Positions 24,868 to 29,201 of a stretch of DNA of 58,182 nucleotides are shown piece by piece. Within the stretch, counting starts at the first letter, position 1, and each line of letters starts with the position of its first letter. Source of the DNA: Gammaproteobacteria bacterium (GTDB lineage Bacteria > Pseudomonadota > Gammaproteobacteria > SZUA-140); the NCBI GenBank assembly GCA_021648525.1, contig JAKISP010000023.1:1-58182 (forward strand), read 5' to 3'. Below the pieces are notes generated by a model, which saw only the letters and a list, made by a program, of their open reading frames with translations, was not told the DNA's origin and made no database searches. Both the position numbers and the translations under genes were made by a program.

Positions 24868-25908
<1,041 letters not shown>

Positions 25909-25966
25909 GTTCTTATCTGACGTCATGTTGTTAGCAGACATTCGTGGCTGATTACAACGTAATAGA

Positions 25967-26009
25967 GCCTCAAAACTGGGTGATTCTGACCCCGGTTTTG
26001 AGGCTTTTT
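25967..26009 (+). terminator. Rho-independent terminator after ilvC
   Basis: GCCTCAAAAC and GTTTTGAGGC form a perfect 10-bp stem extended by inner G/C pairs, and the TTTTTA tail begins at 26005. It is a strong intrinsic terminator dividing ilvIHC from the next genes. Confidence 0.85.
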
Positions 26010-26106
26010 AATTATTACGATGAGGCCTTTGTACAAGTAAGGCGGTTGCTCCCAGGTAAGGCAAAAGAACAATCGTGCAAATTCCTTACGGAATTGAGTT
26101 TTTATT

Positions 26107-26790
26107 ATGAGTAGTGCTCATCCCTACATTGCGCGCGAAGGGTGGCTGTTTATCGGCGCGCTTGCTGTGTCTGGTTTTGTCGCAAAGTTTTATTTTGGAT
26201 TATTGGGGGCACTACCATTCTGGTTGCTATGCCTTGTGCTGGTATATCTGTTTAGAGATCCACAGCGTGTTATTCCACCTGTCCCACTCGGGGTCGTTAG
26301 CCCCGCCGATGGTGAGGTGCTGGCGATTGAACGCGTGCATGACCACTATCTCGATCGTGACGCCTGCAAGGTCTCTATCCGGATGAACCGCTTTGGGACT
26401 TATGCTACTCGCGCGCCAATAGAAGGCAAGATTGTTCAGCATTGGCATTCGCCAGCTAATGATGATGGTAACAATGGCGAGAGGTTAGATCGTTATGCAA
26501 TGTGGTTGCAGAGTGATGAAAATGATGATGTAGTGTTGGTGATGGCGGTTGGTAACAAGGCCTTAAGGCCGGTCTGTTATCATCAAACCGGAGAGCGTAC
26601 TGGGCAGGGCGAGCGTTGTGGTCTGGTGCGCTTTGGTGGGTATATCGAGGTGCTGTTACCGGTTGATAGCAGGATTGAAGTGACGGTTGGCGATACGGTG
26701 TGTGCTGGTTCTGATATCCTGGCGATGTTGGTACATGAACAGGTTTTGGCGAGTAAAGATCGAGTAGCAAATGTTCTCCTGGAATCATAA
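26107..26790 (+). CDS. Phosphatidylserine decarboxylase-like protein without catalytic His and Ser
   Basis: A 227-residue homologue of the short (type A) Psd usually found between ilvC and pssA. The N-terminus HPYIAREGW, two helices (about 13-48), YLFRDPQR and SPADG (65-69, with Asp68) all fit. However, the family MN.FNVH motif reads MNRFGTY, putting Tyr99 in place of the catalytic His, and the FGSRVD autocleavage site reads FGGYIE, putting Gly178 where the pyruvoyl-forming Ser is required. Self-cleavage and decarboxylation should be impossible. It is full length and open, 20 bases upstream of pssA, so it looks retained rather than decaying. A membrane scaffold or regulator of PssA is an inference; a true psd should exist elsewhere in the genome. 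Confidence 0.82.
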   Translation: MSSAHPYIAREGWLFIGALAVSGFVAKFYFGLLGALPFWLLCLVLVYLFRDPQRVIPPVPLGVVSPADGEVLAIERVHDHYLDRDACKVSIRMNRFGTYATRAPIEGKIVQHWHSPANDDGNNGERLDRYAMWLQSDENDDVVLVMAVGNKALRPVCYHQTGERTGQGERCGLVRFGGYIEVLLPVDSRIEVTVGDTVCAGSDILAMLVHEQVLASKDRVANVLLES

Positions 26791-26810: not shown

Positions 26811-27602
26811 ATGACTGAGCATAAACAAAGACGCAGAGGTGTTTACCTCCTACCTAACCTGTTCACCACGGCAGGACTCTTCGCCGGTTTTTTTGCGATC
26901 ATCGCTGCGATTGATGGCCGCTTTGAAGCGGCTGCCATTGCGATTTTTGTCGCGATGATTATGGACGGTATTGATGGGCGTCTTGCGCGTATTACCAATA
27001 CCCAGAGTGACTTTGGTGCCGAGTACGATAGCCTGGCCGATATGGTCTCATTTGGACTGGCACCGGCACTGGTGATGTTTATGTGGTCGCTCAGTTCAAT
27101 GGGCAAACTTGGCTGGATTGCCGCCTTTGTTTATACCGCAGGGGCCGCGTTACGTCTGGCACGTTTTAATACCCAGCTGCATGTGATCGATAAAAATTAT
27201 TTTCAGGGGCTGGCATCACCACCGGCAGCCGCACTGATTGTTGGCCTGGTGTGGGCAGGCGAAGAGTATGGTATCAACGGTGAAGATATTGCTGTGTGGG
27301 CATTTCTGCTGACTATTTCTGCGGGCCTGCTGATGGTGAGCAAGGTGCGTTATCACAGCTTTAAAGGGTTCGATATCAAAGGGAAAGTGCCCTTTGTAAC
27401 GATTTTTTTTATTGCATTACTATTTGTCTTTATTTCAACTAACCCGCCTTACATCTTATTTACGATTGCCTTTATCTATGCTGTATCGGGGCCGATATTA
27501 ACCTTATGGCAGTTACGTCAACGACGTCGTGATCGTCAACAGCTGACGAAAAACGAATCAGATGACAAAAATAAAAACAGCCCTGATGATGAGCGGAAGT
27601 AA
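26811..27602 (+). CDS. pssA: CDP-diacylglycerol-serine O-phosphatidyltransferase
   Basis: A 263-residue integral membrane enzyme making phosphatidylserine from CDP-diacylglycerol and serine. The CDP-alcohol phosphotransferase signature DG-x2-AR-x8-G-x3-D-x3-D is intact in MDGIDGRLARI...DFGAEYDSLAD (about 51-77), with about six to eight helices. It is the Gram-positive/alpha-beta type with a hydrophobic fold, unlike the E. coli peripheral PssA. The C-terminus is a charged Lys/Asp/Asn tail. It follows the inactive Psd-like gene and precedes leuA. Confidence 0.93.
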   Translation: MTEHKQRRRGVYLLPNLFTTAGLFAGFFAIIAAIDGRFEAAAIAIFVAMIMDGIDGRLARITNTQSDFGAEYDSLADMVSFGLAPALVMFMWSLSSMGKLGWIAAFVYTAGAALRLARFNTQLHVIDKNYFQGLASPPAAALIVGLVWAGEEYGINGEDIAVWAFLLTISAGLLMVSKVRYHSFKGFDIKGKVPFVTIFFIALLFVFISTNPPYILFTIAFIYAVSGPILTLWQLRQRRRDRQQLTKNESDDKNKNSPDDERK

Positions 27603-27659: not shown

Positions 27660-29201
27660 ATGACTAAAAAAGAGAAATTAATTATCTTTGACACCACCCT
27701 GCGTGATGGTGAACAGAGCCCTGGTGCCTCGATGACGCAAGACGAAAAAGTGCGCATTGCAAAGGCACTGGAACGGATGCGGGTTGATGTCATTGAAGCG
27801 GGTTTTCCGATGGCAAGTGAAGGCGACTTTGCTTCAGTCCAGGCGGTGGCCCGTGCGGTAAAAGATAGCACTATCTGCGGCCTGGCACGTGCGCTCGATA
27901 AAGATATTGAGCGAGCCGGTGAGGCGATCAAACCGGCTAACTCCGGGCGTATTCACACCTTTATCGCGACCTCTCCGATTCATATGGAGAAGAAGCTACG
28001 CATGTCGCCAGACCAGGTGGTAGAGCAGGCGGTACGTGCGGTTAAGCAGGCGCGCAACTACACTGACAATGTTGAATTCTCACCAGAAGACGCAGGGCGT
28101 TCTGAACATGACTTTCTATGCCGGATTATCGAAGCGGTCATTGATGCCGGAGCCAGTACCATTAATATTCCCGACACGGTCGGTTATAACTTGCCGCATC
28201 AGTTTGGTTCCTTGATTGCGGAATTGATTGAGCGGGTACCGAATGCCGATAAGGCGATCTTCTCAGTCCATTGCCATAACGACCTTGGGCTGGCAGTCGC
28301 CAACTCACTGTCAGCCGTGATCAACGGCGCACGACAGGTAGAATGTACCATCAACGGCCTGGGTGAGCGTGCCGGTAACGCATCGCTTGAAGAAGTCGTG
28401 ATGGCGATCCAGACACGCCAGGATCTTTTTTCATGCAATACCACGCTTGATACCACACAGATTGTACCGTGTAGCCGTCTGGTCTCTAGTATCACTGGTT
28501 TTGCAGTGCAACCAAACAAAGCGATTGTGGGAGCGAACGCCTTTGCCCATGAATCAGGTATCCACCAGGACGGTGTATTGAAGAGCCGTGAGACCTATGA
28601 AATTATGCGCGCCGAAGATGTTGGCTGGAGTGCTAACCGCATGGTGCTGGGTAAGCATTCCGGACGAAACGCCTTTCGTTCGCGCCTACAGGAATTAGAC
28701 ATTGTCTTTGAAACAGAAGAAGCGTTAAACGAAGCCTTCTCTCGCTTTAAAGATCTGGCAGATAAGAAACATGATATCTACGATGATGACCTGCAGGCGC
28801 TTGTCACACAGACGCGAGCGGCTTCCGAGATTGAGCGAGTTAAACTGGTTTCGCTTAAGGTCTGTTCTGAAACCGGTGAAACGCCAAACGCAGCGGTAAC
28901 ACTCTCATATGATAGTGAAGAAAAAAGCGCGACTGCCAGTGGTAGTGGCCCGGTGGATGCGACCTTTAAAGCGATAGAGTCGGTGGTGAAAAGTAATACT
29001 GAGCTACAACTCTATTCAGTGAATGCGATTACTAGTGGTACCGATTCGCAGGGTGAAGTAACGGTTCGGCTAGAGAAGGGTGGCCGCATCGTAAATGGTC
29101 AGGGGGCGGATACCGATATTGTTATCGCCTCTGCCAGGGCCTATATTAATGCCGTTAATAAACTGCTTGAGCCGGTTGAACGTGCTCATCCACAAATTTA
29201 A
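27660..29201 (+). CDS. leuA: 2-isopropylmalate synthase
   Basis: A 513-residue enzyme joining acetyl-CoA and 2-oxoisovalerate, the committed step of leucine synthesis. The TIM barrel starts with [17 protein letters not shown] and contains [15 protein letters not shown] (metal-binding His pair) and NIPDTVGY; the C-terminal about 120 residues form the LeuA regulatory domain that binds leucine for feedback. ATG at 27660 has GGAG 8 bases upstream. It begins 57 bases after pssA. Confidence 0.96.

Follow-up and report, generated by a model that had tools for sequence, protein, structure and literature searches.

An apparently inactive, conserved homologue of phosphatidylserine decarboxylase between ilvC and pssA in gammaproteobacteria

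The gene between ilvC and pssA

The window analysed here is the whole stretch of 58,182 nucleotides of contig JAKISP010000023.1, from a gammaproteobacterium, and all features described below lie on its + strand. An open reading frame at 26107..26790, with its frame intact, encodes a protein of 227 residues homologous to the short (type II) phosphatidylserine decarboxylase (Psd), the enzyme of the last step to phosphatidylethanolamine (PE), the major bacterial membrane lipid. The upstream neighbour is ilvC, encoding ketol-acid reductoisomerase (24892..25908). The pssA gene, of the CDP-OH phosphatidyltransferase type, begins 20 bp downstream (26811..27602; TIGR00473 111.7 bits, over the cut-off); the catalytic motif of its product, DGxxARx8Gx3Dx3D, is intact as read from the sequence. 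It is followed by leuA (27660..29201), the usual gene after pssA. Between ilvC and the psd-like gene lies a hairpin with a U-run that resembles an intrinsic terminator (25964..26012; folding energy -27.2 kcal/mol, z -6.0), which suggests that the psd-like gene and pssA form a unit apart from ilvBHC in the window. A simple promoter and terminator scan missed this hairpin, the loop of which is apparently over the limit of the scan.

The protein belongs to the Psd superfamily, since it scores 60.2 bits against PF02666, for which the cut-off is 22. The equivalog cut-offs of the type II decarboxylase are not reached, the scores being 175 of 262 bits for NF003680 and 113 of 230 bits for TIGR00164. 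An earlier note on this DNA had described an intact frame with the normal fold blocks, and the blocks AREGW (residues 9-13), FRDPQR (49-54) and SPADG (65-69) are indeed all found in the 227-residue frame. Hydropathy over the alignment of relatives points to a likely membrane anchor, a hydrophobic N-terminal segment at residues 13-49 (26143..26253) that is retained in 94% of the aligned members. A long helix at residues 7-49 appears in a low-confidence AlphaFold model of the window protein; this model, built from six close sequences, has a pLDDT of 58, which is too poor to place the conserved residues, and it was not used. A fold search of the PDB with the same poor model gave no significant match. 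When solved structures were searched with a profile, the matches were only weak, with E. coli Psd first. No relatives were found in viral contigs.

The same note had called the neighbours conserved, which holds well beyond the window: among loci with enough sequence, ilvC is the immediate upstream neighbour in 98 of 100, and pssA comes next after the gene in 95 of 99. Where the gene is absent and both flanks are in hand, ilvC abuts pssA in 15 of the 16 genomes inspected; the remaining one (L193) has about 2.2 kb between the two, in which no relative is detectable. There are also genomes in which the gene is away from pssA. In two of them (G093 and G220) it stays with ilvC and pssA is located elsewhere, and in a third (G185, L124:4989-5615) it adjoins udg-like and rimI-like genes, with neither ilvC nor pssA.

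Loss of the catalytic residues

The residues of the window protein were mapped onto E. coli Psd in an alignment that included intact enzymes of both types, I and II. Asp68 of the SPADG block (codon 26308..26310), which corresponds to Asp90 of E. coli Psd, is retained. Tyr99 (codon 26401..26403) stands at the position of His144, essential in the E. coli enzyme (PMC7952604), and Gly178 (codon 26638..26640) at that of the pyruvoyl-forming Ser254, so that the numbering of both substitutions in the earlier note proved correct. Had the true Ser and His lain elsewhere in the protein, the proposal of an inactive enzyme would have fallen; the alignment with both types offers no replacement for either residue, and misplacement of the catalytic residues was rejected. 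There is no substitute Ser, Thr or Cys at the cleavage position, which reads FGGY. The motifs NERN and VQIAG-x-x-ARR, conserved in intact enzymes, are also gone. In E. coli Psd, the S254A variant remains uncleaved, and the His144 mutants have no decarboxylase activity and are cleaved slowly (PMC7952604). Judged from its residues, the window protein should thus be incapable of making the pyruvoyl group.

The loss is shared by relatives of the window protein. In an alignment of 103 distinct broken sequences, Tyr occupies position 99 in 66 and Phe in 25; at position 178 there are 32 with Gly, 25 with Ala, 20 with Arg and 15 with Ser. Both catalytic residues are absent in 86. Two sequences have His in the alignment column of position 99, yet carry Ala at 178.

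Occurrence among gammaproteobacteria

A profile of the pseudoenzyme (A2) matches in 128 of 369 sampled gammaproteobacterial genomes. Four of the matches are weak and belong to type I psd, and another is the distant second Psd of G344. Without these, 123 of the 369 genomes have a type II gene that belongs to this line, with the catalytic Asp, His and Ser intact in 20 (one of which, L039, is a fragment) and broken in 103. Roughly a quarter of the sampled gammaproteobacteria carry the broken version. The broken gene sequences were read, a few of them being contig-end fragments. These 103 genomes and the 103 aligned broken sequences are overlapping but non-identical sets, as the alignment also includes sequences from genome_contigs that are closely related to the window, and eight of the genomes were read on their own.

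The state of the gene goes along with the presence of another decarboxylase. The type I psd (TIGR00163) is absent from all 20 genomes with an intact gene in the ilvC-pssA slot and present in 98 of the 103 with a broken one (Fisher p = 1.1e-18, a value that counts genomes and not independent events). A search of the window's own genome for a second psd, as the earlier note had proposed, found a single one, a canonical type I gene with PVDG, DYHRIH and MGST (L137, G000:C41:8854-9552). It lies near an epmA-like gene, as in E. coli, and presumably its product carries out the decarboxylation in this genome. In five genomes with a broken gene (G105, G209, G234, G258 and G332), no intact Psd was found with TIGR00163 or PF02666. 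These are draft genomes, 93-98% complete. Either the drafts have gaps at this gene or PE is made by another route. Their loci are L134, L101, L227, L107 and L106, respectively, and G234 and G332 come from one genus.

Origin and conservation

In a tree with the catalytic and signature columns masked, 99 broken sequences are set apart from all others by a branch with support 100, and they still form one derived clade, again with support 100, after 18 non-gammaproteobacterial (alphaproteobacterial) Psds, all with Asp, His and Ser, are added as an outgroup. Four very long-branched rows were excluded from both trees, which are quick searches with support by SH-aLRT only. The loss of His and Ser, for which the earlier note had proposed a comparison of homologues, is therefore common to one clade of about 100 sequences, as expected for a shared derived origin rather than for independent events of decay. 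Catalysis was thus probably lost in one single event, with free drift at the cleavage position thereafter.

The members of the clade have strictly conserved residues of their own. D137 and E138 of an S/T-D-E-x-D motif (residues 136-140, 26512..26526) are present in 100% of 103 pseudoenzymes and D140 in 97%. In a GERxGQGxRCG block (residues 162-172, 26590..26622), R164 reaches 99%, G166 97% and Q167 92%. E106 (99%), G201 (98%) and P60 (98%) are conserved clade-wide as well, and Asp68 is retained in 91% of members. Altogether 13 signature residues hardly vary within the clade, among them those of TDExD, PxEG and GERxGQG, and at least 11 of the 13 occur in 97 of 104 rows, the window being counted twice. 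Most intact enzymes carry 1-4 of the 13. The exceptions are the intact enzymes of family f110, with 9-11, and one f82 enzyme with 9. Three f110 members (L026, L029 and L031) combine intact Asp, His and Ser with most of the signature and are possible bifunctional intermediates. Since the signature is partly older than the catalytic loss, it suggests that a second role may already have been present in the active ancestor; plain shared ancestry could also account for it.

Among the closest relatives of the window, dN/dS, where computable, lies at 0.07-0.22. Together with the clade-wide conserved residues, this indicates that the catalytic residues were lost in a gene that is under purifying selection. 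We hold with high confidence that the family is a conserved pseudoenzyme and not a decaying gene. Of the earlier proposal of a selected non-decarboxylase role, the part concerning a kept pseudoenzyme is strongly supported by the single clade, the conserved residues, the dN/dS values, the synteny and the co-occurrence with type I psd. As an apparently inactive family with strictly conserved residues of its own, it probably has a job different from decarboxylation.

Comparison with known systems

The direct evolutionary parent is the type II phosphatidylserine/archaetidylserine decarboxylase (PF02666; TIGR00164/PRK05305). Length, domain blocks, the N-terminal membrane segment and the gene order ilvC-psd-pssA-leuA are shared with it, whereas the pseudoenzyme lacks the catalytic His and Ser, NERN and VQIAG, has new near-invariant residues and falls below the model cut-offs. 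The type I Psd is of the same superfamily but is longer, and differs by an MGST or LGST cleavage site, a separate locus and intact Asp, His and Ser. Among pyruvoyl-dependent decarboxylases, the nearest precedent for an inactive homologue that still has a function is the AdoMetDC prozyme of trypanosomatids, which heterodimerises with its close paralogue and activates it (PMC5201418). Both are kept by selection. However, the only active Psd available to the pseudoenzyme is the distant type I protein, and its neighbour is the preceding enzyme, PssA. PanZ, the regulator of the pyruvoyl enzyme PanD, is likewise accessory to a small pyruvoyl decarboxylase system but is an altogether different protein that acts on an active decarboxylase (PMC4410942). 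No description of inactive bacterial Psd homologues or of such a pseudoenzyme family was found in open-licence PMC texts; subscription journals lay outside this search, and novelty is not proven thereby.

The pseudoenzymes pass Pfam's cut-off for Psd and are easily annotated as phosphatidylserine decarboxylases. Should they be inactive and yet have a conserved function, a step in the control of membrane lipids would have been overlooked in a considerable fraction of the gammaproteobacteria. This locus is also a natural example of a single loss of catalysis in lineages where a non-orthologous enzyme serves the same reaction, with intact, broken and absent states all seen between ilvC and pssA.

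Possible roles of the pseudoenzyme

Our preferred reading, held tentatively and at a little short of even confidence, is a membrane-anchored, non-catalytic role at the branch of phosphatidylserine (PS) and PE, most likely acting on PssA. The type I, E. coli-type Psd would have taken over decarboxylation in these genomes, and the old type II gene would have been retained as a non-catalytic membrane protein. It may bind the neighbouring integral-membrane PssA, or its product PS, by the conserved acidic and Arg residues, and so adjust the activity or placement of PssA. Two points favour PssA as the target, namely where the gene lies and the possible need of an integral PssA for control from outside. 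E. coli PssA is peripheral and self-limiting through its membrane association, while PE increased with rising amounts of the integral B. subtilis PssA (PMC8027125); for an integral PssA without such self-limitation, a separate means of control would be reasonable. Against a role at PssA count the frequent occurrence of pssA without the pseudoenzyme (the CDP-OH type is present in 353 of the 369 genomes, most of which lack the pseudoenzyme) and the three genomes in which the gene is away from pssA. The earlier note had suggested control or anchoring of PssA. This is plausible by position; a specific co-evolution with PssA was not found, the partial mirror-tree correlation of 0.25 showing no excess over that with LeuA (0.44) or IlvB (0.32). 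A bolder formulation, to which we give somewhat less credence, is that a pseudo-decarboxylase one catalytic loss away from a bifunctional enzyme senses or gates PS production at PssA, or else that its clade-specific acidic and Arg residues make up a new enzymatic or metal site.

Alternatively, the dead fold could be a carrier that takes PS over from PssA, holds it in the membrane and delivers it to the type I Psd, encoded elsewhere. The co-occurrence of type I psd, the place beside pssA and the retained membrane segment would agree with this. We consider it unlikely, as the substrate-pocket blocks NERN and VQIAG are gone from the clade and no type I psd was detected in five genomes. That E106, D137, E138, D140 and R164 form a new active or metal site on the old fold is, taken by itself, distinctly unlikely: the invariance or near-invariance of these residues across very diverged members speaks for it, but the structure model is too poor to show them clustered, and several of them are already present in the intact f110 enzymes.

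A role on the branched-chain amino acid (IlvC) side, such as tethering to the membrane or sensing, would fit the constant presence of ilvC upstream and the two genomes that keep the gene with ilvC after pssA has moved. It is improbable in view of the terminator-like hairpin after ilvC in the window, the genome that has the gene with neither neighbour, and the parent family, which is a lipid enzyme. A slowly decaying remnant heading for deletion is quite improbable and was already disfavoured above; the many genomes in which ilvC is directly beside pssA and the free drift at the cleavage position (G, A, R, S and others) would fit it, but the low dN/dS and the clade-specific residues, which hardly vary among about 100 diverged sequences, would not. 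That the protein is still a decarboxylase by an unusual route, as the retained Asp68, the slow cleavage of E. coli His144 mutants and the Ser at 178 in 15 members might hint, is very improbable given the Gly at the pyruvoyl position of the window protein, the uncleaved S254A variant, the inactive His144 mutants and the 86 members lacking both residues.

Some further arrangements were seen at individual loci. Apparent fusions to IlvC, suggested by long frames in L106, L123, L041, L057 and L099, were discarded, as the upstream part is off-frame and has no IlvC match. In G220 (L069:4992-6765), ilvC and the pseudoenzyme are followed by SPOR-domain-like, cvpA-like and purF-like genes in place of pssA. 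The udg-like and rimI-like genes that adjoin the pseudoenzyme in G185 come after leuA in the window, and the arrangement in G185 resembles a removal of pssA and leuA. G185 also carries two copies of type I psd and encodes a divergent PssA. The distant second type II Psd of G344 (L135:5001-5750) has Asp, His and Ser intact, lies outside the ilvC-pssA slot on a very long branch, and occurs besides a type I psd.
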